A DNA stretch of 64,000 bases from Prevotella sp. GTDB taxonomy: Bacteria; Bacteroidota; Bacteroidia; Bacteroidales; Bacteroidaceae. This document shows, piece after piece, positions 10,870-64,000 of this stretch. The position numbers and the translations under genes are program-made. The notes below the pieces were generated by a model, which saw nothing but the letters and a program-made list of their open reading frames with translations, did no database searches and had not been told where the DNA came from. Numbering within the stretch: the first letter of the stretch is position 1; each line of letters starts with the position of its first letter. The stretch covers positions 1 through 64,000 of the forward strand of contig JALFPC010000054.1 in assembly GCA_022782305.1 (NCBI GenBank), written 5' to 3'.

Positions 10870-10931
10870 CGAAAGAAAACTGTGAATATTATCTTTATCA
10901 TACATTAATAACAAACAAAAAAAACAGAATT

Positions 10932-11204: not shown

Positions 11205-11226
11205 TGTAAATATTTCAGACAATATA

Positions 11227-11262
11227 ACAAGGGTGTGCCAATGGTTATTGGCACACCCTTGT
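11227..11262 (+). terminator. Strong hairpin terminator of HU
   Basis: Perfect 16-bp stem ACAAGGGTGTGCCAAT / ATTGGCACACCCTTGT with GGTT loop, followed by TTATTTACTTATT. Confidence 0.9.
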
Positions 11263-11330
11263 TTATTTACTTATTGTGCATAGGATGCTATGTCTTATGA
11301 TATGGTGCGGCGAGATACCACACCTCATTA

Positions 11331-12134
11331 TCATGGCTGCTTGCCGATATAAGCAAGAATACCACCATCTACATAGAGGATATGGCCATTTACGAAGTCG
11401 GAAGCATCTGAAGCAAGGAACACGGCTGGTCCCATCAGGTCTTCAGGAGTACCCCAGCGTGCTGCCGGTGTCTTGGCAATGATGAAACGGTCGAAAGGAT
11501 GACGGCTGCCGTCTGGTTGAATTTCGCGCAGAGGAGCTGTCTGTGGTGTGGCGATATAGCCTGGACCTATACCATTGCACTGTATGTTATGCTCACCAAA
11601 TTCTGAGCAGATATTGCGTGTAAGCATTTTGAGACCACCCTTGGCAGCTGCGTATGCAGACACTGTCTCGCGGCCAAGCTCGCTCATCATCGAACATACA
11701 TTAATTATCTTGCCATGACCCTTCTTGATCATGCCTGGGATGACAGCCTTAGACATGATGAATGGTGCATTGAGGTCTATATCGATGACCTGCTTAAATT
11801 CCTCTACACTCATCTCTGTCATGGGAATGCGCTTGATGATACCGGCATTGTTTACAAGGATGTCTATCACGCCGAGTTCTTTCTCGATGTCGGCAACCAT
11901 GGCCTTGACATCCTCTTCCTTGGTCACATCGCAGATGTAACCCCTGGCATCTATGCCCTTGGCCTTATAGTCTGACAAAGCCTGCTCGAGATGGTGCTCG
12001 CTGCGGCAGTTGAATGCAATCTTTGCTCCTGCCTGGGCAAAAGCCTCAGCCATTGCGAAACCTATTCCATAGGCAGCTCCTGTTACCAATGCCACCTTCC
12101 CTTCAAGGGAGAATTTCTTTGAAAATGTATCCAT
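11331..12134 (-). CDS. kduD: SDR oxidoreductase, 2-dehydro-3-deoxy-D-gluconate 5-dehydrogenase type (KduD)
   Basis: KFSLEGKVALVTGAAYGIGFAMAEA, NNAGII, SAYAAAKGG; paired with kduI. Start set at MDTFSKKFSLEGK. Confidence 0.85.
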   Translation of the reverse strand: MDTFSKKFSLEGKVALVTGAAYGIGFAMAEAFAQAGAKIAFNCRSEHHLEQALSDYKAKGIDARGYICDVTKEEDVKAMVADIEKELGVIDILVNNAGIIKRIPMTEMSVEEFKQVIDIDLNAPFIMSKAVIPGMIKKGHGKIINVCSMMSELGRETVSAYAAAKGGLKMLTRNICSEFGEHNIQCNGIGPGYIATPQTAPLREIQPDGSRHPFDRFIIAKTPAARWGTPEDLMGPAVFLASDASDFVNGHILYVDGGILAYIGKQP

Positions 12135-44502: not shown

Positions 44503-46734
44503 TTATTCCGCTGTGAGCTGGAGCACACGACTTGACCAGTCAATCTTCTTGCTCCACTCCAGATCATGCTCGTATGGTAGGTCAAGGCCATGGTCCATGA
44601 GATAACGACCGCTGTATGACTTACCCTCGCATGGCAATGGGTTCTTGTCTATACGATTAAGCTCATGCACCACATAACGTTTGTTTGGATCAAGACCCTG
44701 CATCTTTACAATGGGGAAATGCTCATTCTTGAAACATTCCAACTTATACCAATAAAAAACCGCCTTGGTTTTATCCTCAGATACATACATGAGCGATGCC
44801 AGATTATCACCAGCATAAGGGGAATGTAAGCGGTAGAGGTCGCCAAACTGCACCACGGACCTTATGGTTTTATAGTCGGCTATGGCCTGTCGGCAGAGGA
44901 CCTTCTCTTCGTCTGTCATATTCTTGGGTTGTATCTCCATACCCAAACGACCAGACATGGCCACATCACAGCGCAACTTGAGCGATGTAGTGCGGAAAAC
45001 AGCATGATTGGGCACTGCCGAGATATGACTAGCCATGGCTATGGCAGGATAGAAATAGGATGTGCCCCACTGCATGTATATGCGTTGCAGAGCATCTGTA
45101 TTGTCGCTTACCCAGAACTCATCGAAGTAGGGCAGCAGACCATAGTTGGCCCTGCCTCCTCCCGATGCACAATCTTGGATGATAACATCGGGATATTTGG
45201 CCCTGATGCGCTGGCATGTTTTGATGAGCCCCTCATGATAGGCTATGTAAAGATGGCTCTGTTCCTTGAGATACTGCGAGCCGTGATTCATGACGGGTGC
45301 ATTGGCATCCCATTTGATATATGCTATCTCGGGGAATGAGGTGAGCAGACGGTCTACAACATCAAACACGAAATCCTGTACCTCAGGATTAGACATGTCG
45401 AGCACCACCTGCGTACCGCCACGTCCCTTCACGGGTTCACGTCCAGGTGCCTTAATTATCCACTCCGGATGGCGCTCATACAGTTCGGATGTGGTGTTGG
45501 CCATCTCTGGTTCTATCCATATCCCGAACCTCACACCATTCTTCTTGGCATCGCGCAGCAAACCCTCTATGCCATCTGGCAACTTGCGGCTGTCTACAAC
45601 CCAGTCGCCCAATGCAGCATTGTCGGTGGCACGTGGATACTTGTCGCCAAACCAGCCATCGTCCATAACAAAGAGTTCACCTCCCATGGCACGGATATCT
45701 GCCATCATCTGATCCATGCCCTTCTGGTTGATATCAAAATACACTCCTTCCCATGAGTTGAGCAGAATCATGCGCTCCTGGTTGCCGTGGCGCAACTGGT
45801 AATGGCGTGCCCAACGGTGGAAATTGCGCGAGGCTCCCGAGAGTCCCTGTTGTGAGAAAGTATAAGCCACATGTGGTGTTACCAATGTCTGCCCTTTGGC
45901 CAGATGATACTCTGAATTGTCGGGACAGATTCCTGCCAAATAGGTATGATACTCTGTATCGTCAGTATCAATGATTACATCAAAATTACCCGAATACATG
46001 AGGGCGGCACCAATAATGTCTCCATCGTTTTCACGTGGTTTGCCATCAAGAGAAATCATGATCTCCTGTCGGTCGGTGGTGGCATTGCGCAGTCCGTCCT
46101 TGTTCTTGATGCGCAATATCCCACTCTCAAGGCGATGTTCTGTGAGTTGTGCCTCGGCAGCCCATGCACCGTGGAAGTGGTTGACCCACACATTGCCGCG
46201 GCGTATAGGCATGGATGAGGAATAGAAGCGGTTGAGAGTTACAGGTTTCTTCTCGCCGTTTGTTATCTCTGTCCAGCACTCTATCATGTCCACATCGCTA
46301 TAGGCGAAGTAATGGAGTTTTACCGATATGGGATAGAGAGGGTCATGAAGGGAAATGGTGAGTAGAGCGCCCTTACGATCCTGCCCGTTGGGTGCCTTGT
46401 CTGCCACCGCAGTAGTCTGCCACGACTCGGCAACGAGTTGTGTTGACAGGTTCCCATCGGCATGGCGCATGGCAAATGCCGCCTCCGACTGTATATGAGT
46501 GGCTCCGTAGGCAGGGTAAACCTCAAGATGGCTCCAATTGGCACGTGTAGGATTGGGCAGTGCTGCCAGATCGGCATCAGAGAGCAGGTTGCCATAATAT
46601 ACAAACTGCGGTTCCTGACCTTTGTTTACTTCCAGTACCAATGTATTGTTGGGAGTAGAGAGCGACACCCTCTCTGCCCAAATATGCGGCAGACCAGCCG
46701 TCATGATTGCAAACAGTATTGCAAATCTTTTCAT
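44503..46734 (-). CDS. GH36-family alpha-galactosidase
   Basis: Signal peptide; ILLNSWEGVYFDINQ, FVMDDGWFGDKYPRATDNAALGDW, YIKWDANAPVMNHGS, IIQDCASGGGRANYGLLPYFDEFWVSDNTDALQR. Confidence 0.93.
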   Translation of the reverse strand: MKRFAILFAIMTAGLPHIWAERVSLSTPNNTLVLEVNKGQEPQFVYYGNLLSDADLAALPNPTRANWSHLEVYPAYGATHIQSEAAFAMRHADGNLSTQLVAESWQTTAVADKAPNGQDRKGALLTISLHDPLYPISVKLHYFAYSDVDMIECWTEITNGEKKPVTLNRFYSSSMPIRRGNVWVNHFHGAWAAEAQLTEHRLESGILRIKNKDGLRNATTDRQEIMISLDGKPRENDGDIIGAALMYSGNFDVIIDTDDTEYHTYLAGICPDNSEYHLAKGQTLVTPHVAYTFSQQGLSGASRNFHRWARHYQLRHGNQERMILLNSWEGVYFDINQKGMDQMMADIRAMGGELFVMDDGWFGDKYPRATDNAALGDWVVDSRKLPDGIEGLLRDAKKNGVRFGIWIEPEMANTTSELYERHPEWIIKAPGREPVKGRGGTQVVLDMSNPEVQDFVFDVVDRLLTSFPEIAYIKWDANAPVMNHGSQYLKEQSHLYIAYHEGLIKTCQRIRAKYPDVIIQDCASGGGRANYGLLPYFDEFWVSDNTDALQRIYMQWGTSYFYPAIAMASHISAVPNHAVFRTTSLKLRCDVAMSGRLGMEIQPKNMTDEEKVLCRQAIADYKTIRSVVQFGDLYRLHSPYAGDNLASLMYVSEDKTKAVFYWYKLECFKNEHFPIVKMQGLDPNKRYVVHELNRIDKNPLPCEGKSYSGRYLMDHGLDLPYEHDLEWSKKIDWSSRVLQLTAE

Positions 46735-46749
46735 AATATTATCTGATAA

Positions 46750-48018
46750 TTATTCCGTTCTTTCAATTATTTCTAGGCACATACGTGAATTATGGTATGG
46801 GCATTTCCAAAACCCTGCATGGTCGTCACGGGTGTTGACCTCGCCATGCGCATTGCGGCTCCAATACCACTCGCCGTACTCATGGTCAATGAGGTTGTCC
46901 TTAATATACTTCCAGCAGCACAAAGCCTTGTCAAGAGCCGAGCGGTCATTGAAATACTGGTATATATTATAGAATCCCACCACGGCCTCTGCCTGCACCC
47001 ACCAGTGGCGGTCGTCATCCACATGACCAGTGTCGAGATTTGCCTCATGAGTCATCGACCCATCGCTGTTTAGTCCTTTCTCAGATGCTTTGGCCACCAA
47101 TACCACTATGGGTTCCACCTTCTTGAGGATATCCTTGTCTGCCAGCACCATGGCAGCCTCATGCATGAGCCACGAACATTCAATGTCGTGACCATAACTC
47201 TCAAGCCATCCTGCACCCCGTGTCCAATCATTTTCGAAGAAGAGATCGAGGTGGTGTGTATCGGGATTGAGTATGCGGTCGGTGAATATGCATATAATAT
47301 TTCTCAGCGCGTCGGCCACTTGTTGCTTTCTGTTTTGGTCAACACTCATTCCCTTAGTTTCCATCTCGTTGAGGCATCTTAGCAGGTTGGTATATGGTTC
47401 CATGATATGTAGATGGGTATTCTGAGATTTGGGATAGTTGGCATCGAGATCAGAAAGTCTCATGTCGGCAATCTCGCCCCACTCTCTCGTCTGTGCCTCT
47501 ATGTATCCATTGTTTATGCGATCAAGAGAGTGTACCTCTATGGTATCGAAGAGTTGGAACGAGATTTCTATCGTTTCTTCTATTTCTGTTTGTGGTGTGC
47601 GCAGATCTGTAATGGCAGCCCTCACATATTCGCTCATACCATAGAGCATGAAACCAATGGCGTAGAACTGCTTTTTGGTGTCTTTGGCATTGCCCAGATA
47701 GTCCACCGACCAATAACTGCCGCCATATTCGCTGTCAATGAAATGGTTGATGATATAATCTCTGGCACGCTTGGCAGCCGCTAAGTATTCAGGGCGCTGC
47801 AATACACGATAGGCAGCGGCAAACGACCAAAGTATGCGGCCATTGAGGATGCCGCCCTTGTCGGCATCCTTGATTAGGGTGCCATCGCCTCTCATCTGTC
47901 CGTAAAACCCTCCATGTTCTTCGTCCTGCATATTGTTTAACCAGAATGGCAGGATATTGCGCTCCACGGTATTGAGCATCTCCGTGCGGAGGGTTTTAAT
48001 GATATTATTGTCTGTCAT
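46750..48018 (-). CDS. AGE-family cellobiose/mannobiose 2-epimerase
   Basis: LPFWLNNMQDEEHGGFYGQMRGDGT, KGGILNGRILWSFAAAYR, DDRHWWVQAEAVVGFYN; adjacent to GH130 and GH26. Confidence 0.92.
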   Translation of the reverse strand: MTDNNIIKTLRTEMLNTVERNILPFWLNNMQDEEHGGFYGQMRGDGTLIKDADKGGILNGRILWSFAAAYRVLQRPEYLAAAKRARDYIINHFIDSEYGGSYWSVDYLGNAKDTKKQFYAIGFMLYGMSEYVRAAITDLRTPQTEIEETIEISFQLFDTIEVHSLDRINNGYIEAQTREWGEIADMRLSDLDANYPKSQNTHLHIMEPYTNLLRCLNEMETKGMSVDQNRKQQVADALRNIICIFTDRILNPDTHHLDLFFENDWTRGAGWLESYGHDIECSWLMHEAAMVLADKDILKKVEPIVVLVAKASEKGLNSDGSMTHEANLDTGHVDDDRHWWVQAEAVVGFYNIYQYFNDRSALDKALCCWKYIKDNLIDHEYGEWYWSRNAHGEVNTRDDHAGFWKCPYHNSRMCLEIIERTE

Positions 48019-48057
48019 AATAGTTGAAATATGATGGTATGAGCCCTTGGGGCACAT

Positions 48058-49401
48058 TTATTTCTTTATTGGATATAGCCAAGCTAGAAGAGCCATGATA
48101 ATGGCAATACCAGCAGGAATGAGCGAGAACAGCGACCAAACCATGGTAAGCACCGAGTCGGTGATAGAGGCAGGGTCGATAACAGAATTGCCGAAATCAT
48201 CTTTCATCATGCTCGCACCGGCCAGTCCGAGGAAGAGGGCTATGAGCGAACCAGAGATGGCACCACCGAGTTTCTGCGACATGGTGCCTGACGAGAAAAT
48301 GAGTCCTGTGGATGATGCTCCGTTTTTTTCTGTTGCATAGTCAGCCACGTCGGCATACATAGACCATAGCAGGGGCGAATAAAGTCCGATGCCCGCGGAA
48401 GTGAGAACCACCACCACTATCATCAACCATATATAACTGGCATCCATGGGAATAAAGAAGAACAATACCGAGCATGCCACGCAGATGATGGAGGCATATA
48501 TGAATGCCATGCGCTTGCTGCCCACCTTAGCAGTGAATGCAGGCGAGAGACCACCGAAAATCATGCATGTAACCTCTCCAAAGGCCATAAATACAGTATA
48601 GTTGATTATCAGGCTGCCAATGGTTATATCGCCACCAAGGCAATAGGCGAGCATATATCCAGCCACAGCATAGCGGAAGCCATTGAAGAAATTGGTGCAT
48701 ATTCCTATTAGCGTGAGATAAATCCACGGACGATTGCGAAACAGGTCGCCAAACTGCTTGAAGGAGAATTTCTCTGCCCTAACAGGCTTAAGCCTCTCCT
48801 TAGTAAGCAGACCGCAGGCAAGTGTCATCACAGTGGCAAGCAGTCCAAAGAATGCACCCAGCACCGCATACTGGTGGGCATCGGTGCCGCCCACAAATTT
48901 CTGCAGGTATGGAAAGGAGATGAGGGTGATAAATCCCATGGCATAGGCTCCAATCATGCGGAAAGATGAGAATTGGTTTTTCTCATTGTCGTCGTCGGTC
49001 ATCACGCCAAGTAGCGAGCCATATGGTACGTTGACCAAGGTGTATACGGCCATCATAAGCAGATAAAAGACATAGGCATACACACGCTTTAGTTCTGGTC
49101 CGAAGTCAGGGGTATAGAGCAACAAAGCGAAGATGATGCCAAAAGGGATGGAACCGAAGATGAGCCACGGACGATAAGTACCCCAGCGCGACTGAGTGCG
49201 GTCAGCAAGGCTACCCATGAGCGGGTCTGTAAACACGTCGAAGAGACGGGCTATGAGCATCAGAGCCGCAGCATCGGCAAAAGACAGTCCGAAGACATTG
49301 GTGAAATACAATGGAAAGGCTATAGACATTATCTTCCAGGTGATGCCGCCAGAAGCGGCATCACCCAGAGCATATCCTATTTTCTCTTTGATGGAAGCCA
49401 T
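48058..49401 (-). CDS. MFS sugar transporter (glycoside-pentoside-hexuronide type)
   Basis: KIGYALGDAASGGITWKIMSIAFPLYFTNVFGLS, ARLFDVFTDPLMGSLADRTQSRWGTYRPWLIFG. Confidence 0.92.
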   Translation of the reverse strand: MASIKEKIGYALGDAASGGITWKIMSIAFPLYFTNVFGLSFADAAALMLIARLFDVFTDPLMGSLADRTQSRWGTYRPWLIFGSIPFGIIFALLLYTPDFGPELKRVYAYVFYLLMMAVYTLVNVPYGSLLGVMTDDDNEKNQFSSFRMIGAYAMGFITLISFPYLQKFVGGTDAHQYAVLGAFFGLLATVMTLACGLLTKERLKPVRAEKFSFKQFGDLFRNRPWIYLTLIGICTNFFNGFRYAVAGYMLAYCLGGDITIGSLIINYTVFMAFGEVTCMIFGGLSPAFTAKVGSKRMAFIYASIICVACSVLFFFIPMDASYIWLMIVVVVLTSAGIGLYSPLLWSMYADVADYATEKNGASSTGLIFSSGTMSQKLGGAISGSLIALFLGLAGASMMKDDFGNSVIDPASITDSVLTMVWSLFSLIPAGIAIIMALLAWLYPIKK

Positions 49402-49448: not shown

Positions 49449-50651
49449 TTATTTACCGAGTGTGGCTTTATTTTTGGCCACCAGCGATTTGATGGTCTCC
49501 ACAGACTTGGCAGTATAGAATCCGTCTTCTGGGGTGTGCATACAGTAGTCAACGAGTTTGCCCACCGTTGACTCAGCCACATGCATACGGGTGTCAGAAG
49601 AAGCGTAATAGATGAGCACACGATCATCATCGTCATGCACGCCCTCGGGAGCATCGCCATCGGCAATCCATCCGTTGGCAAAAGCCACGTTCATCACATC
49701 ACCTATATACTCCTCTCCTTCAGGCACAAGGAAATAGCCGCCAGGCTGGGCGATGACACGAGTAGGATCATCCAAGGCTGTCATATACATATACAGCACA
49801 TAGCGCAAACCAGAAGCGCAGCCACGTACGCCATGGGCCAAATGGAGCCATCCGTGGGTTGTCTTGATAGGATGAGGACCTTCTCCGTTTTTCACTTCCA
49901 TGATGGTATGATAATGGCGGGCATTGATGATGGTCTCTTCTTTCACTTCGGCATGCTCGATGTCGTCAACGAGAGCCCAGCCGATGCCACCGCCAGAACC
50001 AGTATCTATGAATCCGTCTTGCGGACGGGTATAGAAGGCATACTTGCCATCCACAAACTCAGGATGGAGCACCACATTGCGTTGCTGCGAACGGGTCTTG
50101 AGGTCTGGCAGGCGATACCATGTCTTGAGGTCCTTTGTGCGTGCTATGCCTGCTGTGGCAGTGGCTGCCGAGAGGTCTCCGGGCTGAGAGTCGTCATGAC
50201 GCTCTGCACAAAACACACCATATATCCATCCGTCTTGGTGTTGGGTGAGGCGCATGTCATAGATATTGGTGGCTGGTATCACATCCTCGGGCATGGTGAT
50301 GGGCTCATCCCAGAAGCGGAAATTGTCGATACCATTGGGCGACTCAGCCACTGCAAAAAAGGACTTACGGTCGGCTCCTTCTACGCGTACCACCAGCAGA
50401 TAGCGACCATCCAACTTGATGGCACCAGAATTGAGGGCTGCGTTCATCATAATACGCTGCATGAAATATGGATTGTCGTGCTCATCGAAATCATAGCGCC
50501 ACTCTAAGGGTGTGTGCTCAGCTGTCAGAATTGGATATTCATATTTGTCATAAATGCCATTGCCCCACTCTTTTCGGATATTCTTACGGCTGAGCAACTT
50601 CTCATGGTGCTCACGTACGGCTTTCACTTTCTGTTCAAATGTAGTTGTCAT
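49449..50651 (-). CDS. GH130 4-O-beta-D-mannosyl-D-glucose phosphorylase
   Basis: NAALNSGAIKLDGRYLLVVRVEGADRKSFFAVAESPNGIDNFRFWDEP; HTIMEVKNGEGPHPIKTTHGWLHLAHGVR. Confidence 0.92.
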   Translation of the reverse strand: MTTTFEQKVKAVREHHEKLLSRKNIRKEWGNGIYDKYEYPILTAEHTPLEWRYDFDEHDNPYFMQRIMMNAALNSGAIKLDGRYLLVVRVEGADRKSFFAVAESPNGIDNFRFWDEPITMPEDVIPATNIYDMRLTQHQDGWIYGVFCAERHDDSQPGDLSAATATAGIARTKDLKTWYRLPDLKTRSQQRNVVLHPEFVDGKYAFYTRPQDGFIDTGSGGGIGWALVDDIEHAEVKEETIINARHYHTIMEVKNGEGPHPIKTTHGWLHLAHGVRGCASGLRYVLYMYMTALDDPTRVIAQPGGYFLVPEGEEYIGDVMNVAFANGWIADGDAPEGVHDDDDRVLIYYASSDTRMHVAESTVGKLVDYCMHTPEDGFYTAKSVETIKSLVAKNKATLGK

Positions 50652-50715: not shown

Positions 50716-51888
50716 CTACTTAATCTTCTGGATGTCCTTGACAAACAGGTGGTGCTTGTCTTTGGCCCACAGAGCAAAGTCGTCGGCAGTGGCAGCATCC
50801 TTGGATGCACCAAAATGCTCTTTGGAATAATTACGCCAAGGCAGATACCATAGCAATGGATAGCGGTCCATGAAGGGTTTCACCACCCTCTGCCACCATG
50901 TAGCGTCGGGAGAGTTCTTATAGCCACATTCTGTCATGGCTATCAGTTTATTGTTTTTGGCGGCAATGGCAGTAATGAGTTGCAGGTCGGCATCAAGTTG
51001 TGCCTTGAAGTCGGCCTCGGTGCCCCATTGATAGGCATCCTCGCCTATGATGTCTACACGCTCATTGCCGGGATAGCGCACCATCCATGCCTCTTCGGTC
51101 CAATTACCCTGCAAGTTAGGCGAATATGACCATACAATGCTTTCGCCCAATGTGGCATTGATATAATCCTGTGTCATATTCCAAATGGCGTGGTATTCGG
51201 CATCGGTGCAATTGGCCTGCCCCCACCAAAACCAGTTACCATTGTTTTCATGATAAGGACGGAATACTATTGGTATGGCATTGCCATGGTTGTCTTTGAG
51301 CGACGAGAGAAATGTTCTGACGCGCTCCAGCCATGTCATATACAAATCATAACGGTTGCCACCTTTGAGCACCGACTTTACGGTATGCTGCGGGTTGGGC
51401 ACAGCCTTGGCAGTCTGGCACTGTCGCAACTGACACAGTGCTTTCACCGCATCCTTATATGCCGCAATATCGCTCTCTATCCATGCTGTAGTGCCCAGCA
51501 GAGGGTTGCGCGGATGCCAAGAGATGGTAATGATGCCGCCCCGTTCATGATGGGCTATGATCTCCTGGCGAATACGGCTGAAAGGCACAGAATCGAGATT
51601 CTTTAAATCACCCACTTCTATGCCACCAAGGTCGAAACCCATCACGGCAGGATAGTCACCCACCAACTCGTAGGTATCGGAGCGCCCCTCATCCCAATTC
51701 CATGTAATGCCATAGAAAGGATCATCTTGATGACCATACATATAGCCCCGCTTCTGTATCTTAACCAGACGGTCGAGGAGTTGCTGGCGTGGCGTTTTGG
51801 CGTTGGCCTTCACCTTGGCGGCATTGGCCACTGCCAGCGGCATGATGGCAGCCGCCACGAGGATAACGAGTGATATTATTCTTTTCAT
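50716..51888 (-). CDS. GH26 beta-mannanase (secreted)
   Basis: Signal peptide MKRIISLVILVAAAIMPLAVANA; acid/base FRPYHENNGNWFWWG; nucleophile LIAMTECGY. The ORF-track N-terminal extension to 52059 overlaps the upstream CDS and is rejected. Confidence 0.92.
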   Translation of the reverse strand: MKRIISLVILVAAAIMPLAVANAAKVKANAKTPRQQLLDRLVKIQKRGYMYGHQDDPFYGITWNWDEGRSDTYELVGDYPAVMGFDLGGIEVGDLKNLDSVPFSRIRQEIIAHHERGGIITISWHPRNPLLGTTAWIESDIAAYKDAVKALCQLRQCQTAKAVPNPQHTVKSVLKGGNRYDLYMTWLERVRTFLSSLKDNHGNAIPIVFRPYHENNGNWFWWGQANCTDAEYHAIWNMTQDYINATLGESIVWSYSPNLQGNWTEEAWMVRYPGNERVDIIGEDAYQWGTEADFKAQLDADLQLITAIAAKNNKLIAMTECGYKNSPDATWWQRVVKPFMDRYPLLWYLPWRNYSKEHFGASKDAATADDFALWAKDKHHLFVKDIQKIK

Positions 51889-51898: not shown

Positions 51899-52969
51899 TT
51901 AGTCTTTCTTTTTGAGATATAGTCCATTGAGATTATGTGCAAATATGGTGCGCTTGTCATTATACAAGTGCATGAAATCTGCAATGTCGCTGCTTCCAGG
52001 ATATGGGCATGCAGCCATGATATCTCCACCCATGCCACTGTTTTCTCTAAAGAGAGCATAGGTCAGGCCGTTGCCAGCAATGAGGGGTAGCACCCTCTGG
52101 CTCCAATATGCAGAGTCTTTTCTGCAATAGTCGCCCATGGTAATGCCAGCACCGCATTTCTTGCTCTTGGCCACAGCAACCAAGGCTTTCACCTGTGCCG
52201 ACAACATCTGCCAACGGGCATCAGTATTCTCAGACTCATTAATATCGCCTACTGACAGGTCTACGGCTCCCAGTTCACAATCGGGCATATATGCTTTGAA
52301 TGTTTCTTTTTCATTAGTTGTCTGCTCAGCCGAATAGCCAGCCACAATGTTGCTGGTGCCCAGTTCGCGCAGTTTGTCTGCTATGATCTTATATACATTC
52401 TTATAATCATCTGCGGGCAACGACATGTACCATTCGTCGTGCACACGGGGCATAATATATAGCAATACTGGTGCTCTCTTGCCATAGCCATCCTGAAGGC
52501 TCGCAAGATAGTTTGACATGGAGGTGATATTATCTGTCAACTCCTCATCATCCAGATATTCAGGCACCATCCAGCGAATGATGACCAGGCTGCCTCGTTG
52601 CACAGTGGATAGAATATCACTGCGGATGGCAGAGAGAGACATGCCCGAAACATCTGTTCCGCTCGCGACATCTGAAATCTCATATCCCGTAACAGCCACA
52701 TTATCTCCACACACGCTCTTGATATCGCTGCGCAGACTGTCGCCCTGCCATCCAGCACCACACAAGGTGCTGCTCATCTGGCCAAACAATACTCCGCGCT
52801 CAGATATTAGGGGCAGGTTGTCGCGCATGTTCTCTGTGCGGACGGTCAGTCCACTCTGACCTATCTCGTCATAACTTTTCTTTTTGTCGCCGCCGCAAGA
52901 TGCCATCATGATCACTACAGCCAGCATACATGCTGAAAGTCTCATACCGCGCAAAATCATTGACATCAT
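51899..52969 (-). CDS. GH26-like lipoprotein, predicted catalytically inactive
   Basis: Lipobox MMASC|GGDKKK. Aligns by eye along its length to the neighbouring GH26 (LFGQMSST..., SRVLPLI... etc.), but the nucleophile motif TECGY is TMGDY and RPYHENNGNWFWW is MPRVHDE-WYMSL. Confidence 0.75.
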   Translation of the reverse strand: MMSMILRGMRLSACMLAVVIMMASCGGDKKKSYDEIGQSGLTVRTENMRDNLPLISERGVLFGQMSSTLCGAGWQGDSLRSDIKSVCGDNVAVTGYEISDVASGTDVSGMSLSAIRSDILSTVQRGSLVIIRWMVPEYLDDEELTDNITSMSNYLASLQDGYGKRAPVLLYIMPRVHDEWYMSLPADDYKNVYKIIADKLRELGTSNIVAGYSAEQTTNEKETFKAYMPDCELGAVDLSVGDINESENTDARWQMLSAQVKALVAVAKSKKCGAGITMGDYCRKDSAYWSQRVLPLIAGNGLTYALFRENSGMGGDIMAACPYPGSSDIADFMHLYNDKRTIFAHNLNGLYLKKKD

Positions 52970-53001: not shown

Positions 53002-55347
53002 TTATTCAGCATAGGCAGACTTCATGGCATCCACCACAGTGGGCAGTGTCCACTGGGGCACGCTACGGTCTTTGCCATCGAAGATGCTCACCCAATAGAA
53101 GGTGGCAATATTCAATGCTTTGGCCTTGCTCACTATATCGGCGGCCTGCTTGGCTGCTGCCTGCTTGAGGGCATCAGAGGAAGAAGAACCGACATTGACA
53201 TTATTGCCATGAGTACCATACTCGCCAATGATGCAAGGAATACCCTTAGAAACAAACGAGGTGTTAAGTCGGCTGAACATACCTTCCAACTCTTTGCTGC
53301 ATGCCGAAGTCCAATCGCCGTATGTATTTACCCAGTCATATGGGTCATAAGTGTGAACCTCCACAGCCAGATGGCCGTCCACCACATCTGTAGGCATGCG
53401 CAGATGGTCAAGCACCTGCTGGAGGTGCGCAGCTGAATACGTGTTGATGATAAGGTTGCGAGTAGTATTGTTACCTCCCGTTGCTCTCACAGCATCCACG
53501 AAATCCTGTGCATAGTCATTGAGTGCTGTATATGAAGAGGTGGCAGAAGGTAGTGTCCAATGGTTACCAGCATCGAGCATCTCGTTATATCCTTCGAAGA
53601 GCAGACGATGGCTGTATGAATTGAATCTGTTGGCAATCTGACGCCACAGATTTTTGAAGCGGGCACTGTTTCGTGTGTGGTTGTTGGTATCAGCCTTTAT
53701 CCATTCCCATTGCTCCGTCCCACTACCTGTATCATGATGCACGTTGAGTATGCAATACATGCCAGACGAAATGACATAGTCTACTACCTCCTGCACACGC
53801 TGCATCCATGCCTCGTCCACATTGCCGTCGGCATCAATATGTTGAACCCATGTCACTGGCACACGCACAGCATTGAAACCGCCTGCTTTAAGGAAATTGA
53901 TCTGCTCCTGAGTGGCCACTGGCTGACCCCAACAGGTCTCATAGCGCGACACGTCGGTGAGATTATTCGGAATATAATCGCCATGGGCATCAAGGGTGTT
54001 GCCGAGATTGAAGCCCAGACCCATGTTCTTGACCGCAGCCACTGCACTCTCCTCAAGATATGTGACATTGAGGTTTACGTCATCGCGAGAGATAACGAAA
54101 TCCTGCGACATGGCATCCTTCCACCATGCTTCTGATGGCATATTATTGCCATACCATGGACAGAACCATGCCCATTTGGCTCCTGCATTCCAAATCTCTG
54201 AGATATTGGAGAAAGGGGAATCGCCGCTGTTGCCGCATTCTGCCAATGCAACAAGTTTGCCTGGATAACGAGCAGTGATCTCATCAAACTCCTGCTTGTT
54301 CTGCTCTGCATTGCTACCATAGAGGTCGCGACCGATTATGTCTACATACTGGTCGCCGGGATACCATGCTGAGTCATCATTATACTGTGTTGCATCGCCA
54401 TTATAGTTCTGTGTTGTCCATACCCATATAAGGTTATGCACGCCACGTTGCTGGAAATAATCAAACATGGCCTGCCACAAAGCCCGATAGGTGGTAGCAC
54501 CGCCTTCGCCCCACCAGAACCAACTCTTACCCCAAGAGGCGCCCGACTTGAGTTCAGCATTGCCAGCAGCCTCGTGGAAGGGACGCCATACGGCACTCAC
54601 ACCCTTCTTCTGCAATTGCAGTAGCACATCGGTCACACGCTCCATCTGGCCATAAAACCACTTGTTCTCCCATGTGTCGGCCACTAATGCATTGGCAGCC
54701 TTAAAGGTAGTCTGCTCAGGCGAGCAGGTAACTCCCGAACCATCTGTGCCTGGGGTTACAGACTCTGATGTGGGCACATTGAAATGCCACATGAGTTGCA
54801 CCAGTCCACCATTGGCGGTCCAGTTGGTCACAGGTGTCAGGTCGTTATAATTAATCCATCCATTGCCATCGGGCACATAGATATGTATGAAATCATAACA
54901 GTTGAAGGCTGGATACTTGCCAGTGGCTTTGAATATCTTCTCAGCCTCTGTAGTGTTCCAGTTGACATTGGCCATCACAGACGAGATGATCTTGGTGCCA
55001 TAGCAAGTCTTCAGATATTTATACAGGCGCTTGGCTCCATCGGTGGCAGAAGCATCGGCAAGGGTGATGTCTGTCACATCGCTCTCCTTATAAACAGAAA
55101 ACGACACATTGCTGATGTCATCAATAGCGAAGGTCTGCCATGCGCCGAAAGCCTCAAGCCCCTTGAGATATACCTCCATCTTATCGGTATCAAAAGAGAG
55201 GCTGCTCATAGCATTGCTGTTGCCAGTCAACTGATATTCGGTCTGGGTGCCATTTTTGGCGGTTATCACAATCTTATCTCCCTCGCGCTGGGCAAAGCCG
55301 AGAGCTGAAACCACCAGTGCAAATATAATAAACAGTATCTTTTTCAT
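53002..55347 (-). CDS. Bifunctional GH26 mannanase - GH5 endoglucanase/mannanase
   Basis: GH26: AVWRPFHEAAGN, LVALAECGNSGDSP. GH5: MGLGFNLGNTLDAHG, NAVRVPVTW, LLFEGYNEMLDAG, IIGEYGTHG. Confidence 0.93.
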   Translation of the reverse strand: MKKILFIIFALVVSALGFAQREGDKIVITAKNGTQTEYQLTGNSNAMSSLSFDTDKMEVYLKGLEAFGAWQTFAIDDISNVSFSVYKESDVTDITLADASATDGAKRLYKYLKTCYGTKIISSVMANVNWNTTEAEKIFKATGKYPAFNCYDFIHIYVPDGNGWINYNDLTPVTNWTANGGLVQLMWHFNVPTSESVTPGTDGSGVTCSPEQTTFKAANALVADTWENKWFYGQMERVTDVLLQLQKKGVSAVWRPFHEAAGNAELKSGASWGKSWFWWGEGGATTYRALWQAMFDYFQQRGVHNLIWVWTTQNYNGDATQYNDDSAWYPGDQYVDIIGRDLYGSNAEQNKQEFDEITARYPGKLVALAECGNSGDSPFSNISEIWNAGAKWAWFCPWYGNNMPSEAWWKDAMSQDFVISRDDVNLNVTYLEESAVAAVKNMGLGFNLGNTLDAHGDYIPNNLTDVSRYETCWGQPVATQEQINFLKAGGFNAVRVPVTWVQHIDADGNVDEAWMQRVQEVVDYVISSGMYCILNVHHDTGSGTEQWEWIKADTNNHTRNSARFKNLWRQIANRFNSYSHRLLFEGYNEMLDAGNHWTLPSATSSYTALNDYAQDFVDAVRATGGNNTTRNLIINTYSAAHLQQVLDHLRMPTDVVDGHLAVEVHTYDPYDWVNTYGDWTSACSKELEGMFSRLNTSFVSKGIPCIIGEYGTHGNNVNVGSSSSDALKQAAAKQAADIVSKAKALNIATFYWVSIFDGKDRSVPQWTLPTVVDAMKSAYAE

Positions 55348-55392: not shown

Positions 55393-55845
55393 TTATCTGA
55401 CTATCTTGACAGACAAAGCACCAACCCTCACAATGCTCAAACCATTGGGCAGTGATGACAGGGATATAATGGTACGATTGGCGTCATGGGTATATTGTAT
55501 GCCGATCTCTTTGCCGTCGGCAGTATAAGCTTCTACTTTTACTTGGGCAGACACTATTATGGCATCGCCCTCCTTAGTGATGTCGTAGCCAGCAGCCAAG
55601 CCATCTATTCCCGAAGAAACTTCGGCAAAGGTGAATGTCTTCACCTCATTGAGAGTATATTGCATGGTAGTGGCAGCAGCCTCTACTATGAGTTTGTCGT
55701 CAGCCACGCTAACCTTTGGTTTGTCGCTGAGCAGGAATGTTTGTGTGGTGCCATTGTCAAAGGTGACAACAAGGCTCTTGCCGCCTGCCCATGAGGCTAG
55801 GCTTATAAAGGTTGCAACGAAAAATAATATGGTCTTCTTAATCAT
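55393..55845 (-). CDS. Small secreted PUL protein with T9SS-CTD-like tail
   Basis: Signal peptide MIKKTILFFVATFISLASWA; beta-rich KSLVVTFDNGTTQTFLLSDKPKVSVADDKLIVE...; C-terminus IISLSSLPNGLSIVRVGALSVKIVR. Start set at MIKKTIL; the ORF-track start is 55884. Confidence 0.7.
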   Translation of the reverse strand: MIKKTILFFVATFISLASWAGGKSLVVTFDNGTTQTFLLSDKPKVSVADDKLIVEAAATTMQYTLNEVKTFTFAEVSSGIDGLAAGYDITKEGDAIIVSAQVKVEAYTADGKEIGIQYTHDANRTIISLSSLPNGLSIVRVGALSVKIVR

Positions 55846-55888
55846 AACAATATGTTGTTGACGTATTGGGTTGCTGTTTATCAAAATT

Positions 55889-55986: not shown

Positions 55987-58008
55987 TCAAGGCAGGATAG
56001 TCATCTTGGTAACACCCTTCATGTCACCCTGAAGGATGAGAGCGGTATCGCTCCAACCGTCGCTCTGTCCCTCAACAGCGTCTATGAACGCCTGGTCGAT
56101 AACATACTCCAGAACCTCAGCAGTTCCTTCCCAGTCTGCAATAGTAGTGATGCCAACCCAGTTGCAATTGTTAACCTGTATCTGACCTGTTACTCCTGCA
56201 GGCTTGTAAACGATAATCTTTGACTTGCCTGCGGTGAGGCCGATGGCAGCAAGGTCTGCCTTGAAGATACGGATCTTACCCTTTGAATCGCTCCAATCGA
56301 AGTTGAATGGATAGGTGATAAATCCTGACTGGTCTTCATACTTGGCAAAGGTAGCAAAGTCAACTTCTGCCACATCAACAACAGTCTTGCCTGCCACGAT
56401 GCGCTTACCTTCAGGTGTTATGAACACAACTTCAACCTCACCTGTAGCCATTTCCGGAACAGTGAAGATGATTTCATCATTGGTCTTGGAAACAATCTTT
56501 GTTACTTTTACATCACCAAGATATACAGACTCAGCATTGTAGAAATTCTTGCCCTTAAGTGTAGCTTTCTCGCCAATAACAATCTTTGCAGGCATCTCTG
56601 AAACGGCAGGATCGGTGGCAGGAGTAATGGTCAACATGCCTGATACCTCAATGGTTGTACCGTTCTTGAGGTTGAGTTTCAAACCTGTTCCTGCACAAGC
56701 TGTTGGCACGGTCAATGCGATGGCAGCAGCGCTATGGGCCACGAATGACTCTGCAGCCACGGTCTGCTCTGGGTCACCAGGCAGTGTTACGCTTGCCACG
56801 AGGTCAAGGTCTGTACCCTTGATAATCACGTTGTTGCCAGCCATGAGTTCAGATGGTGTGCACTCTGTAACAGTTGGTTTCACGAGGGTATAAGCCACGG
56901 TAACAGTCTTGCCATTTGCCAATGTGAGGGTGATGTCACCTTCCTGTGCGGCCTCTGGAACAACAGCCACAACCTTGTCGGCAGCCACGGTCTTGAGTTC
57001 GCCATCGGCATTTGGGAATGCAATAGCGGTCACGAGGTCGAGGTCCTTACCGTTGATGGTCACATCAGCACCGTTCTTAACAGGAGCGGGTGCTGCTGAG
57101 AGATTGGTAGGAACAACGGTTTCAATTGAACCGGCAGGAATGCTTACTCCTGAATAAGTAACTAGAGTCACCTCACCATCGGTAGCAGTTTCAGGCAGAG
57201 CGAAGGTCAGGGTATTGCCATCGGTAGCCACTGTGAGAGCATCTGCCTCAACAGAAGCACCATTGAGGTTCACCTTCTCTATCTGCTCAAGAGAGGTGCC
57301 GCTTACGGTCAGGGTAGCACCAGCCTTTAGAGAAGTAGGAGCTACACTGGTAGCTGTAGGCAATGCGATAGTGATAGCATCATCGGCATATAGCAAGTTC
57401 TCACCATCAGGATTGGCATCGCTGAGCATTGGGCGACCTGTCTTGGCCTCCTTTGGTATGGCCACGGTGATGGTGTAGCGGTCGTGAGACTTGAAGTCTT
57501 TCTCATCTACACGAACATCATCTGCAAACACTACCTGATGCATGAGGTTGAGATAGTCACCAGTGAAAGTAACGATATCGCCAACCTTACCACTGAGGTT
57601 ACCCTCCTGACCGATATATACTTTGCCAAGCACGATATTCTCTTCGTATGTTACAGGAGTAATGGTCTTTATCTCACCACCCTTGGCAGTAATCAGGGTA
57701 ACAATACCCGGTTCGCACTTCTCCTTTGGCACCTCAATCCAAATCTCGCTCACATTGCCAGACTTCTTGACATCAATGGCAGTGATAGGATCGGCACCAG
57801 GCAGACGCACTTCTGTTATCTGGTCGAGATTGCTGCCGAGGAACTTCAAGGTACCACCGCGCAATACAGGACATGGACCGAATGAGTTGAGTTTAATCTC
57901 ATTTCCATACTGGTCGGTGACGAGGTCGTCCTCATCGCAGGATGTCAGAGACAATCCTGCGAAAAGAACCACGAACAATGACCAGAATATTGACTGATAT
58001 TTTTTCAT
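55987..58008 (-). CDS. Multi-IPT/TIG surface lipoprotein (putative surface glycan-binding protein)
   Basis: Lipobox LSLTSC|DEDD; about six TIG-like repeats (GGTLKFLGSNLDQITEVRLPG, GATLTVSGTSLEQIEKVNLNG, GADVTINGKDLDLVTAIAFPN, GNNVIIKGTDLDLVASVTLPG ...); distinct C-terminal domain. Confidence 0.85.
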   Translation of the reverse strand: MKKYQSIFWSLFVVLFAGLSLTSCDEDDLVTDQYGNEIKLNSFGPCPVLRGGTLKFLGSNLDQITEVRLPGADPITAIDVKKSGNVSEIWIEVPKEKCEPGIVTLITAKGGEIKTITPVTYEENIVLGKVYIGQEGNLSGKVGDIVTFTGDYLNLMHQVVFADDVRVDEKDFKSHDRYTITVAIPKEAKTGRPMLSDANPDGENLLYADDAITIALPTATSVAPTSLKAGATLTVSGTSLEQIEKVNLNGASVEADALTVATDGNTLTFALPETATDGEVTLVTYSGVSIPAGSIETVVPTNLSAAPAPVKNGADVTINGKDLDLVTAIAFPNADGELKTVAADKVVAVVPEAAQEGDITLTLANGKTVTVAYTLVKPTVTECTPSELMAGNNVIIKGTDLDLVASVTLPGDPEQTVAAESFVAHSAAAIALTVPTACAGTGLKLNLKNGTTIEVSGMLTITPATDPAVSEMPAKIVIGEKATLKGKNFYNAESVYLGDVKVTKIVSKTNDEIIFTVPEMATGEVEVVFITPEGKRIVAGKTVVDVAEVDFATFAKYEDQSGFITYPFNFDWSDSKGKIRIFKADLAAIGLTAGKSKIIVYKPAGVTGQIQVNNCNWVGITTIADWEGTAEVLEYVIDQAFIDAVEGQSDGWSDTALILQGDMKGVTKMTILP

Positions 58009-58061: not shown

Positions 58062-59378
58062 TTATTTGTTAGGCACGGCACGGATATTGTCGATGCGGAT
58101 GATAGGATGACAATCCTTGCCTTCATAGCCACCACCATTTACACAGAATATGGTGAGAGAGGCGAAGTCGTCGGCCTTGGTAGGACCTGTGGATGAAGCA
58201 GTACCATCCCAATACTTGTTGAATACGCCCTGCTGTCCGCCGATAGGCAATGTTACTGTTACCCACTTGCCACCGGTGTCGTAGCTGCCTGTAGTCTTCC
58301 AAGGAGCATAGATGGCGCGAGCCCATCCGTCGTTGGCATGGAAGAATTCGTTGTTGGCAGTAGAGATGGTCACCTTGTCTGGACCGGCAAAGATCACCTG
58401 CATAGGAGCAGCTGCCCACTTGCCTTCCTCAGGAATGCACATCTCAAACTTGAGAGACATATTCTCAAAGTCTGTGAAGTCTACGATGTCATTGAGCTTG
58501 ACACCATCGCCGCTGAAACCACCATTCCAGTCGCCTGCCCAATACTCGAATGAGAAGGCACCATCATTCCATGCTCCACCAGCAGTCATGTCTACATCGC
58601 CAAGGAGGAGATAATTGCCAGATAGAGAATTCTCGTCGCTTTGTATCTTCTGGGCATGCCAACCATGGTTGCCCAATACGACTCCAGACACTGGGTTAGG
58701 AGTATCGAAGTCAAAGAGAATACCGCGCTGGTCATGGAACTGGAAGTTGCTTCGTGTGGTACCATACTTGCTCTTCACCTTAATGAATCCAGCGGGAGCC
58801 TCTGCAGGCACGATGAAACGAATTTCAGTAAGAGAGATGCTGGTGATATTCTCACGTGGCAACACATAGTTGTTAGGGAACTCAACGCTTAATGGATATT
58901 CCTCATAATCGAGGAAATAATTTCCCTTGATGACAGCCTCTTCACCCACCTTTGCCTGCTCGTTCACCATTGAACTAATAACAGGGGCACTGATGAGCAC
59001 CTTGAAGTCATACTCTACGGTATCGTTTCCTGTAGTGATAAAATAGATCTTGTCGGTAACCTTCTCTGGAATGGTCTTAGGCACCGTGAGCAGTATTGCA
59101 TTATCAGTCATGTAACTGGTATTGAGCACTGCTGGGCGATCATTGAAGTTGATGGCCTTTACGCTGCGCAGGTTGTTACCCACAATACAGATAGGCGTAT
59201 TGAGGAAAGCACCTGTCAGCAGTGAGTCCTTGCTGGCGGCATCAGCCATGCGGATATAAGAGATAGATGGCGTGCCATCTGCGGTCTCATACTCATCGGG
59301 CTGGTCTTCGCATGATGTGAAACCTGTCATGCAGACAAGGGCGATGCCGAGAGTCAGTTTGAAATATTTGGTATTCAT
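58062..59378 (-). CDS. IPT/TIG surface glycan-binding lipoprotein (SGBP-B type)
   Basis: Lipobox MTGFTSC|EDQPDE; IPT-like domains; C-terminal Trp-rich domain ILFDFDTPNP...NHGWHAQ...FEYWAGDWNGGFSGDG. Confidence 0.85.
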   Translation of the reverse strand: MNTKYFKLTLGIALVCMTGFTSCEDQPDEYETADGTPSISYIRMADAASKDSLLTGAFLNTPICIVGNNLRSVKAINFNDRPAVLNTSYMTDNAILLTVPKTIPEKVTDKIYFITTGNDTVEYDFKVLISAPVISSMVNEQAKVGEEAVIKGNYFLDYEEYPLSVEFPNNYVLPRENITSISLTEIRFIVPAEAPAGFIKVKSKYGTTRSNFQFHDQRGILFDFDTPNPVSGVVLGNHGWHAQKIQSDENSLSGNYLLLGDVDMTAGGAWNDGAFSFEYWAGDWNGGFSGDGVKLNDIVDFTDFENMSLKFEMCIPEEGKWAAAPMQVIFAGPDKVTISTANNEFFHANDGWARAIYAPWKTTGSYDTGGKWVTVTLPIGGQQGVFNKYWDGTASSTGPTKADDFASLTIFCVNGGGYEGKDCHPIIRIDNIRAVPNK

Positions 59379-59417: not shown

Positions 59418-61157
59418 TTAGTATCTGTAGGTTGAACGTACGTCCACACTAACTGGTTCCACATTGCTTCCGAGGTTTGGATTAACAGATACATCCTCAG
59501 TTGGGAATGGGATAGTGAAGGTCTTGTCAGTCACGTTGGGAGCTGGAGTAGAAGTGTCATATTCTGCACCTGAAGCATCCCATACACCAGTCTCATAGTA
59601 AACCTTGTAAACATCTGAGAGATTCCACCATGCATTGCGCTTCTGAGCCTGTAGCTCTTCAATACACTTATTTGGCTCATAGTAGGCACGGCGTACGAAG
59701 TCATACCAACGGTCACCCTCGCCAGCAAGTTCCAGACGGCGCTCCTTCCATACATCATCGAAGGTGATGGAAGTCTTTGGAGTATAACCGCTAACGGCAC
59801 GTCCGCGCACTTTATTAAAGGCATCGAGAGCATCGGCATTTGTTGTTGTGCCACCATCAAGGAGAGTCTGTGCCTCTGCCAATACGAGGTATACGTCAGA
59901 GAGACGGAGGATATGAGTAGCCACGGCATAAGCCATACGTGCTGCCGATACACCGCACTCTACCAAGTGGTCGTTGTTGTTGCCATAAGCATGCTTAACA
60001 TTCTGTGCACCGCAAGGACCCTGGAATGTCTCGGTGGCAGCCTTATTATAATTCTTGTTGTAATAGAATTCCATAATCTCAAATCCAGCTCTTCCGTCAC
60101 GCAATGTGTGGTCACGCCAGAAGTATGGATAATAATCGCCTGGTAGCATGATGGTGGCCTTGCGGCGGATATCCACATCTACACGGTCAGCAGGTTTGTC
60201 AGTAGGTTTAACGCCAAATGCAGCCATGAGGTCTACAGAAGGGCCACCCCAGCCGCCCCAGCAGTCACCATTCTCGTCAAAGTTCTCAGGCATAAGGTCG
60301 CTCTGCAGTGTGTTCTGTGAAGTCCACTGAGAACCCACTGTCCATCGCCAAGCGATAAGGCTTTCGTCAGAAATATTGTTTGAACCGCGGAAGATATCCT
60401 CATAGTTTGGCATGAGCACACGACCAGAGTTATTGATCACATCCTTGGCATACTGTGCAGCCTTTGTCAGGTCGTCATTGTTGAGAGTGCCTGTAACACC
60501 AGCCTTGGTAAGATATACCTTGGCAAGCATACCCTCTGCGCAATAGTAGTCCATATGACCATTGGTGAGTTTCTGCTTAGGCATGATCTCCATAGCCTTC
60601 TCGAGAGTCATGATGATATACTCGTAGACATCAGCCTTAGCCACCTTCCTACAGGTTTTGTATTCGCCTGAAGCGAGCACATCAGAAGTATTGTGTATGA
60701 TGGGCACGTCGCCGAATGAACGTACGAGATAGAAATAAGCCATGGCTTTCCAGATAAGACACTCGCCTTGACACTGGCGAATAGTGGCTTCAGATGCACT
60801 GGCACCACCAAGGGCTTGATAAACGGTATTGGAATGACCGATTACAGCCCATAGAGAATAAGACATTTTTACCAAGTCCTCGTCGGTACCATTTACAGAG
60901 AAGTTGAGGTATGGGCTGCTGCCCCAGTACATATTGCCTGACATCACCTCACCCATTTTGATGAAGCCACGCTGGAAGTCATACCAGGGCGAATTGTACA
61001 GGTAGTTGACACCCGACACACATGCAGCGTCTGAACTATAGTAGTTGTCCAGGTTGTAGTTGTCCTCTACAGGACGATCCAGGAAGTCGTCACAAGATGT
61101 CATGGCGAATCCAAGCATCGCTGCACAAGCTAAATATTTGATATTCTTGAGTTTCAT
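59418..61157 (-). CDS. SusD/RagB-family outer membrane lipoprotein
   Basis: Lipobox FAMTSC|DDFLDRPVEDNYN; GECLIWKAMAYFYLVRSFGDVPII; KVRGRAVSGYTPKTSITFDDVWKERRLELAGEGDRWYDFVRR. Confidence 0.96.
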   Translation of the reverse strand: MKLKNIKYLACAAMLGFAMTSCDDFLDRPVEDNYNLDNYYSSDAACVSGVNYLYNSPWYDFQRGFIKMGEVMSGNMYWGSSPYLNFSVNGTDEDLVKMSYSLWAVIGHSNTVYQALGGASASEATIRQCQGECLIWKAMAYFYLVRSFGDVPIIHNTSDVLASGEYKTCRKVAKADVYEYIIMTLEKAMEIMPKQKLTNGHMDYYCAEGMLAKVYLTKAGVTGTLNNDDLTKAAQYAKDVINNSGRVLMPNYEDIFRGSNNISDESLIAWRWTVGSQWTSQNTLQSDLMPENFDENGDCWGGWGGPSVDLMAAFGVKPTDKPADRVDVDIRRKATIMLPGDYYPYFWRDHTLRDGRAGFEIMEFYYNKNYNKAATETFQGPCGAQNVKHAYGNNNDHLVECGVSAARMAYAVATHILRLSDVYLVLAEAQTLLDGGTTTNADALDAFNKVRGRAVSGYTPKTSITFDDVWKERRLELAGEGDRWYDFVRRAYYEPNKCIEELQAQKRNAWWNLSDVYKVYYETGVWDASGAEYDTSTPAPNVTDKTFTIPFPTEDVSVNPNLGSNVEPVSVDVRSTYRY

Positions 61158-61184: not shown

Positions 61185-64000
61185 TTAGAACGCTACATTT
61201 AGTCCGAAAGAGAATGATGTTGGTGAAGGATAACGTCCGTTGTCCAAACCATACACATTAGAACTTGTTGTAGAAACACCAATTTCTGGATCATAACCGT
61301 CATATCCGGTGATGGTCAGCAGGTTGGTGGCATTAAGAGTCATGCGGAGATTGGTGAGACCGAGCTTCTTGATAAGCTTCTTGTCGAAGGTATAACCAAG
61401 TGTGATGCTCTTGAGTCGCACATAACTGCCATCCTCAATAAATCTGTCGCTCCATGCGTCATTATCGCTTGGGTCGTTGATAGATGCTCTTGGATATGCT
61501 GCATCTGGGTTAGCCACAACCACATTGGTCACGTCATAGATCCAGTTGTCGGCCTTCACACCGTCTTTTGGAGTGAGGATAGCATGTCCGCCGCAGTCAG
61601 CAAGCTGGTTCTGCCATGCTGAGTTCATGTGAGAAAGCTTCATCTTGGTGTAGTTGCCCACCTTGTTGCCAAGAGAACCATTGATGAATACTGTCAGGTC
61701 GAAATTCTTGTATGTGAATGTGTTGTTCCAACCGAATGTCCATTTAGGCATTGGAGAACCGATATTGGTTTTGTCATTTTCGTCGATCACACCGTCACCG
61801 TTAACGTCTACAATCTTCACGTCACCAGGATAGATAGTGTTTTTAGGATTGTACTTGCTTGGGTCGGTATTCCAAGACTTTGTTCCATCTGCATTAGTTA
61901 CAATAGGGTTGTTCTGGTTGCGGAGGTCTACAGGAGAGTTGAGGATATCCTCAAAACTTGTGTAGACACCTGCTGTCTTATATCCATAGAAATTATAGAG
62001 AGACTCACCCTCTGCAGAACGTGTTACCACATCGGTCCACTGACCATAACCTACGAGAGCATTACCACCGGCAAGACTCTTGATCTTGTTTGAGTTGTGA
62101 GAGAAGTTTACGTCTGTAGACCAAGAGAAGTTCTTGGTGTGGATAGGACGTGCAGCCACTGTGAATTCAACACCAGTATTTTCGATGTCGCCATAGTTAC
62201 CCCATGGTGCTGCAAGAGCTGAAGAACCATTTCCGCCTGTACCCATGATAGAAGGCAAGGTGAGTGGCATGAGCATGTCCTTAGACATTTTCTTATACCA
62301 GTCAAAGGTGAATGAGAGGTCGCCACCGAAGAAACCGAGGTCGAGACCTATGTTCCACTGCTCCTGTGTTTCCCATTTGATGTCAAGGTTAGCCATGTTG
62401 GCAGGACGATAAGCCATGCCGAGCCCTGTGTCCATAGTAGACATAGCAGAACCCCACTTATAACTACCGATATCAGAGTTACCAGTCTGTCCCCATCCGA
62501 TGCGGAGTTTACCATTTGACAACCATGTTAAGTCTTTGAGGAAAGCCTCATTGTTGAAGCGCCATGCACCTGCGAAAGAATGGAATGAAGCCCAACGCTT
62601 GTTAGGACCGAAGTTAGAGCTACCATCACGACGGAAGGTGTAGGTGAGCAGGTAACGGTCGTCATAGTTGTAAGTTTCACGTGTGAAGAAAGAAGCCATG
62701 GCAGAAGAGTTGAAGCCAACACCTATCTGTGGGTCACCATCGCCGAGAGCAGGATTGTGGATAGCATCGTTAGGCAGGTTGGTATTATATACAGATACAT
62801 AATCCCAACTGCTCTCCCAGCACTCCTGACCGAGCATGGCAGTAACATGATGCTTTCCGAAAGACTCGCTCCATGTCAGATAGTTCTTTAATGTCCAATA
62901 TGTGCTTGAGTTCTTCTGTACTCGTGCGTTGTTGTTGTCACGTACCCATGTGCCAAGGTCTATTTTGGGTTCGTATGTGCTACCCTTTGACCAACTGAGA
63001 TCCCAACCGAACTCTGTGTGCAGAGTGAGGTTCTTCATAAAACTTATTTCTGTGAAGATAGAACCATTCAGTTTCTGGCGGTCGAGAAGTATCTCATTGA
63101 GCATCGCCATGGCTATTGGGTTAGGACTGGTAAATCCTTCCTTGGAAACGCTTGAATAGCCACCATCGATATTATAAATCTGAATATCTGGAGGAGTAAC
63201 CAATGAATACCGGATGATACCTTCCTCAGAATCAGCGAGTTTAAGGTTATCAGAAGTAGATGTATAAGAAGCATTGAAACCAAGTTTCAACCATGGTTTG
63301 AGTTTAGCATCGAGGTTGGCACGCATACCATAGCGCTCAAACTCAGAACCGATAATGGTACCTTCCTGATTCATATAGTTGGCAGACACATAGTACTGCA
63401 CATTGTCGGTACCACCCTGGGCAGAGATCTGGTGATTGTGCTGCCATGCTGTCTGGAAGATAGCATCCTGCCAGTTGGTACCCTTGCCCAATACAGATGG
63501 GTCAGAATACATTGGGTCAGCACTGCTTTTGGTTATCTCATACTGGTCAACGAGAGTGTTGTAGTATGTAGCAAACTCGCGGAGGTTCATCATGTCAATG
63601 CGCTTCATCTGGCGAGACATGGTGACGCTACCATCATAAGTGAACTTGGCTTCGCCGCTCTTACCACGCTTTGTTGTGATGAGCACAACACCATTAGCAC
63701 CCTGAGCACCATAGATGGCGGTGGCGGAAGCATCCTTGAGAATTTCCATGCTTACGATGTCACCGGGGTTCAAAGTAGCCAGAGGAGAGATGGTAGAAAC
63801 GGAACCATTGCCTAGACGATCACCCAGACCGAAGTCGGAACCACTCTTACCACCACCCTGGAAGATCACACCGTCTACAACGTATAGAGGCTCAGCACCA
63901 GCATTGATGGTAGCCTGACCACGTACTCGGATAGACTGGCTTGAACCAGGAGCACCAGATGTGGCATAGGTGGTAACACCAGCTACACGACCCTGGAAAG
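61185..64000 (-). CDS. SusC/RagA-family TonB-linked outer membrane protein (N-terminus beyond right edge)
   Basis: Frame is open to position 64000: [49 protein letters not shown]. The listed start at 63869 is an internal [33 protein letters not shown]. Confidence 0.97.

Follow-up and report, generated by a model that had tools for sequence, protein, structure and literature searches.

Segatella copri carries in its PUL 7 a GH26 protein, GH26B, that has other residues at both catalytic glutamate positions; this holds for two MAGs and another 62 genomes (PMC12704710, PNAS 2025). The protein does not cleave beta-mannosides, and neither affinity gels nor nanoDSF showed it to bind glucomannan, galactomannan, mannan, xyloglucan or M1-M6; it was described with an SPaseI site and without a lipid-anchor cysteine (PMC12704710). 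The loss of both catalytic glutamates from a GH26 relative, which is the core observation of the present work, was thus published for one species in December 2025, in the only paper that we found on inactive GH26 proteins. For active members of the family, BoMan26A of Bacteroides ovatus provides the reference: its catalytic pair is E188 (acid/base) and E292 (nucleophile), with H125, H187, W193, Y259 and W323 as further residues conserved GH26-wide (PMC5217682). To the known S. copri protein we add a genus-wide range, evidence of constraint, repeated loss and a partner hypothesis that can be tested.

The lipoprotein and its locus

The window, that is, the whole stretch of DNA analysed (64,000 nucleotides from Prevotella sp.), contains a PUL whose features all lie on the minus strand. 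Its first genes encode a SusC-like TonB-dependent transporter (61185-63869; a GTG ORF whose true start may be upstream, syntenic in relatives), a SusD-like lipoprotein (59418-61157; PF07980, E 2.9e-23), an SGBP with an SGBP_B-type binding domain (58062-59378; PF18329, E 5.5e-44) and a 673-aa IPT/TIG-repeat protein (55987-58008; PF01833, E 9.5e-17) that is syntenic in relatives and belongs to the PUL. PF18329 is a xyloglucan-binding domain family, although the PUL looks mannan-directed. There follow a small secreted protein, orf163 (55393-55884), and a bimodular GH26–GH5 'sentinel' enzyme of 781 aa (53002-55347; Pfam GH26 E 5.3e-44, GH5 E 3.7e-59), whose plain signal peptide ends in FAQ and has no lipobox. 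The N-domain of orf163 resembles the N-terminal DUF of the sentinel (hhalign probability 73%), and its weak T9SS type A tail scores below threshold (15.6 bits against a cutoff of 23). The gene under study (51899-52969) begins 32 nt after the sentinel and ends 10 nt before a GH26A-type mannanase of 390 aa with intact HE and TECGY motifs (50716-51888; PF02156, E 1.4e-35). Further downstream are a GH130 mannoside phosphorylase (49449-50651; PF04041, E 8.9e-19), an MFS-type sugar transporter (48058-49401; named from its translation, with homologues in related mannan PULs), an epimerase of the GlcNAc 2-epimerase family (46750-48057; PF07221, E 4e-30) and a GH36 alpha-galactosidase (44503-46734; PF02065, E 5e-113). 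An earlier reading of this DNA, made from the sequence only, had placed both the 356-aa ORF and the adjacent GH26 gene correctly, leaving the strand of the ORF unstated.

The 356-aa product has no match in Pfam or NCBIfam at E<1, and PF02156, the Pfam GH26 family, gives none. In a phmmer search against the PDB, residues 42-346 align to BoMan26A (4ZXO) with an E value of 3e-22, and a profile built from 12 relatives gives E 1.3e-62, so the likeness to GH26 is far above chance. The AlphaFold2 model is a barrel (mean pLDDT 86.3, pTM 0.85) for which Foldseek returns GH26 enzymes as top matches, 4ZXO first with TM 0.78/0.81. We conclude that, as judged from alignment and predicted fold, the protein is a full-length GH26 barrel and an evolutionary member of GH26. 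The sequence-only reading had called it GH26-derived and proposed profile and structure comparisons as a check; the phmmer, 12-relative profile and Foldseek comparisons made here point to GH26.

BoMan26A is the best match in both sequence and structure and has the same barrel, but the window protein lacks E188, E292, H125, H187, Y259, W323 and the long beta3 loop. In the motif alignment, E188, E292, H125, H187, W193, Y259 and W323 correspond to R, a deletion, M, P, W, G and R, respectively; of the seven residues, catalytic or subsite, that are conserved GH26-wide, six are lost and the tryptophan equivalent to W193 is the sole survivor. The former acid/base region (MPRVHDEWY, residues 173-181; 52427-52453) has PR in place of HE and keeps this tryptophan as Trp180, in line with the change that had been noted there. 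The former nucleophile segment (TMGDY, residues 277-281; 52127-52141) has lost its catalytic glutamate, the E292 column being a one-residue deletion. Replacement of this glutamate by methionine, as originally proposed, stands as far as the loss is concerned; the change from TECGY to TMGDY reads as E deleted or as E to M according to where the gap is placed. Nor is methionine conserved among homologues, an idea that we rejected: it occurs in the window protein only, the closest relative (L033) having T-L-G (IT-LGDYC) and most others T-T-G (LT-TGIEG). The window protein thus lacks the catalytic pair of active GH26 hydrolases and, as supported by its sequence, its fold and the loss of the motifs across its family, appears catalytically dead, as the first reading had it.

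Could a different set of residues support an unrecognized enzyme activity? A few acidic residues are conserved among the window protein and its closest relatives (group A, below), namely E35, E46, D82, E97, which ends strand 2, and D160; however, the positions of E97 and D82 are acidic in active enzymes too and hence are not new. The residue table shows no alternative conserved pair at the catalytic positions of strands 4 and 7 in group A, and the S. copri protein is inactive on beta-mannosides (PMC12704710). We regard a new activity of this kind as highly improbable.

The protein begins with a predicted signal peptide and lipobox (codons 1-27; 52889-52969), MASC followed by GGDKKK, in which Cys25 is the C+1 residue. 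The lipobox had been recognized in the first reading, as had the place of the lipoprotein inside a mannan PUL, and both are borne out, the former by an invariant cysteine in relatives and the latter by synteny. The stretch after the cysteine (C-GGDKKKSYDE) is lysine-rich and then acidic (KKKSYDE), and it fits poorly the surface-export consensus of B. fragilis (SDDDD) or C. canimorsus (C-X-K-(D/E)2). Exposure of the lipoprotein at the cell surface is putative. The poor fit would suit a lipoprotein that faces the periplasm and acts in PUL regulation, as a mannooligosaccharide sensor or in some other way, but no sensor gene adjoins it in the loci examined and the S. copri protein was negative for mannooligosaccharide binding (PMC12704710), which leaves a sensory or regulatory role with very little probability.

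Group A across the genus

A search of the genus, together with a scan of named genomes, yielded a family that we call group A. It is represented in the motif table by 17 sequences, of which one is the window protein and another a fragment. Both catalytic glutamates are absent from all 17. The hosts are Segatella copri iA622, S. baroniae/bryantii B14, S. paludivivens, KA00344, KH2C16 and MAGs. With the motif columns excluded and the fragment left out, the 16 sequences form a single clade (support 100/100) on a long stem, and the lipobox cysteine is invariant in every member whose N-terminus was in hand. We found no group A member outside the genus of the window in a 400-genome sample of the family; the six matches from other genera are all catalytically intact.

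Group A is under purifying selection where this is measurable, with dN/dS of 0.06-0.09 in three pairs; the comparison of the window protein with L033 is saturated and uninformative. An intact frame and these ratios led us to reject a pseudogene.

In the named loci, the gene order is SusC-SusD-SGBP-TIG-orf163-GH26–GH5-group A gene (for one locus, L045, the available sequence begins at orf163). The upstream neighbour is the GH26–GH5 enzyme or a form reduced to one half in every locus for which that gene was in hand; L051 has GH26 only, and L120 and the complete genome G045 have GH5 only. In the mannan PUL of S. baroniae/bryantii B14, an ORF upstream of SusC (L135:4975-6189) looks transposase-like by eye.

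S. copri iA622 encodes a 786-aa GH26–GH5 enzyme, then a group A lipoprotein, then a GH5 on the opposite strand. This order matches the published border between PUL 7 and PUL 8. On synteny and by elimination, we therefore take GH26B to be a group A protein, which would make it the S. copri representative of a form found across Prevotella, the window protein included. The two systems are alike in having an inactive-type GH26 without either glutamate in a PUL with GH26–GH5_4, GH26A, GH130 and an adjacent epimerase. They differ in that the window protein sits on a long branch and is only ~36% identical to the syntenic iA622 protein, which serves here as a stand-in for GH26B of MAG Bg0019. They also differ in the anchor: the window and iA622 proteins have a lipobox, whereas no lipid-anchor cysteine was reported for GH26B, possibly through differing predictions; the reported SPaseI type of signal is not essential to membership of the family. 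The published work is limited to S. copri, whereas group A as collected here is genus-wide.

Catalytic losses in related PULs

Most counterparts of this lipoprotein in related PULs are active-type GH26 proteins (group C, for example L104). Like group A, these proteins are lipoproteins, occupy the equivalent place after SusC-SusD-SGBP-TIG and belong to the same tree; unlike group A, they keep the full set of seven catalytic and subsite residues (31 of 31). One locus, L083 (G006), has an active-type GH26 lipoprotein (10917-12068) and a GH26–GH5 enzyme on either side of orf163, possibly an intermediate arrangement.

In a second set, group B (six sequences, L087-L092; for example, L087:10441-11469), the nucleophile survives while neither the acid/base loop nor the long beta3 loop does, and every member has T at the H125 position; dN/dS in two pairs is 0.08 and 0.17. 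A very diverged GH26 lipoprotein of 317 aa on a long branch (L115:7394-8347, G156) has lost the acid/base loop, and its nucleophile glutamate is a threonine. It forms a clade with the five main group B sequences (99/99). The sixth, L090, is nested with the active-type L104 and L110 (support 100/99); over the retained columns, it shares 87% identity with L110. As a caveat, L090 comes from a MAG (G074) in which contamination amounts to 7%. Gene conversion of L090 from group B gained no support from a DNA window profile, in which similarity did not climb towards either of the two group B genes compared; the donor could be unsampled.

The best tree implies three catalytic losses. An AU test does not reject group A, main group B and L115 as one clade (p 0.34), so the firm count comes down from three to at least two; adding L090 to that clade is rejected (p 0.033), as is a clade of group B, L115 and L090 (p 0.010). 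We conclude that catalytic loss arose independently at least twice, in group A and on at least one further occasion.

Candidate roles for the inactive barrel

Relative to active orthologues, conservation in group A is raised in both tails, by a z difference of +0.88 for the N-tail (bootstrap 0.57 to 1.25) and of +1.04 for the C-tail (0.77 to 1.28). The catalytic face shows no such rise and is no better kept than the rest of the barrel. Export or lipidation signals, rather than contacts with a partner, may account for the conserved tails.

These data bear on the proposal in the sequence-only reading that the hydrolase was repurposed as a mannan-binding lipoprotein. In its general form, the old GH26 cleft of a surface protein would hold mannan or another glycan for SusCD. 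The gene does sit in a SusCD operon, the beta1 loop is conserved above average, and group A has conserved residues of its own at or close to the catalytic face (Q64, W74, W133, P136, P174, W180, Y181, N310 and G312). However, that face is kept no better than the remaining barrel, six of the seven GH26-wide residues are lost, the PUL already supplies an SGBP and a SusD, and the syntenic S. copri protein was negative by two methods with beta-mannans, xyloglucan and mannooligosaccharides (PMC12704710). With binding negative in the counterpart, the residues gone and conservation moved to the tails, the mannan-binding claim is unsupported, and we consider a glycan-binding function in general unlikely.

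The complete genome G045 provides a further test of these ideas. There, orf163, a DUF-GH5 and the group A lipoprotein remain as a remnant module (L133:6750-9607). The sentinel has cleanly lost its GH26 half, and the group A gene is intact, with dN/dS of 0.063 against the iA622 protein. No homologue of the mannan SusD was found in this genome at E<=1e-20; the same query matches other loci. Retention of the gene without a mannan SusD counts against glycan binding on behalf of SusCD. It also counts against a structural role in an outer-membrane utilisome, in which the lipoprotein would dock on SusCD and position surface enzymes; utilisomes of SusCD with surface glycan-binding proteins and enzymes have been described (PMC7618045), and an operon shared with SusC, SusD, an SGBP and a surface enzyme, together with a lipoprotein with conserved tails, would fit such a complex, which we nevertheless rate as distinctly unlikely.

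All group A sentinels in hand have a plain signal peptide without a lipobox cysteine, whereas most single-domain sentinels of group B and group C PULs have a cysteine at the lipobox position. Tail conservation, unanchored sentinels and the G045 remnant together favour a role with a protein partner over glycan binding. We tentatively prefer the explanation that group A is a conserved pseudo-mannanase, kept as a lipoprotein to serve as the non-catalytic, membrane-anchored partner of the GH26–GH5 sentinel. In this scheme, a GH26 barrel that lost both catalytic glutamates, most of the -1 subsite and the long beta3 loop remains a lipoprotein; the co-encoded sentinel is secreted without a lipid anchor, and the inactive lipoprotein would be its membrane-anchored partner; and the conserved N- and C-tails would form a contact or positioning surface. 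Physical contact with the sentinel, and any scaffolding role, are predictions of the scheme. Two observations run counter to it: three PULs (L084-L086) have an unanchored GH26–GH5 and no group A gene, so this enzyme does not always need the lipoprotein, and L087 of group B has a lipidated sentinel yet a lipoprotein without the acid/base. The published SPaseI call for GH26B, at odds with the lipobox of iA622, and the saturated dN/dS of the window protein itself also weigh against it.

In Prevotella mannan PULs, the GH26 lipoprotein has become a non-enzyme on at least two occasions and possibly on three or more. Such repetition might point, if rather speculatively, to a selected non-catalytic function, as partner or anchor of the sentinel, that was already present in the fold while the protein was still an enzyme.

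A dead mannanase that purifying selection maintains and that is tied to a single enzyme offers a handle on the non-catalytic proteins of glycan uptake systems, which are easily annotated as enzymes. The puzzle of an inactive, non-binding GH26B in S. copri is genus-wide and extends to cultured hosts such as S. baroniae/bryantii B14 and S. paludivivens, and in sister PULs the related lipoprotein has lost catalysis separately. Scoring such proteins as mannanases would overstate the mannan-degrading capacity of these genomes.
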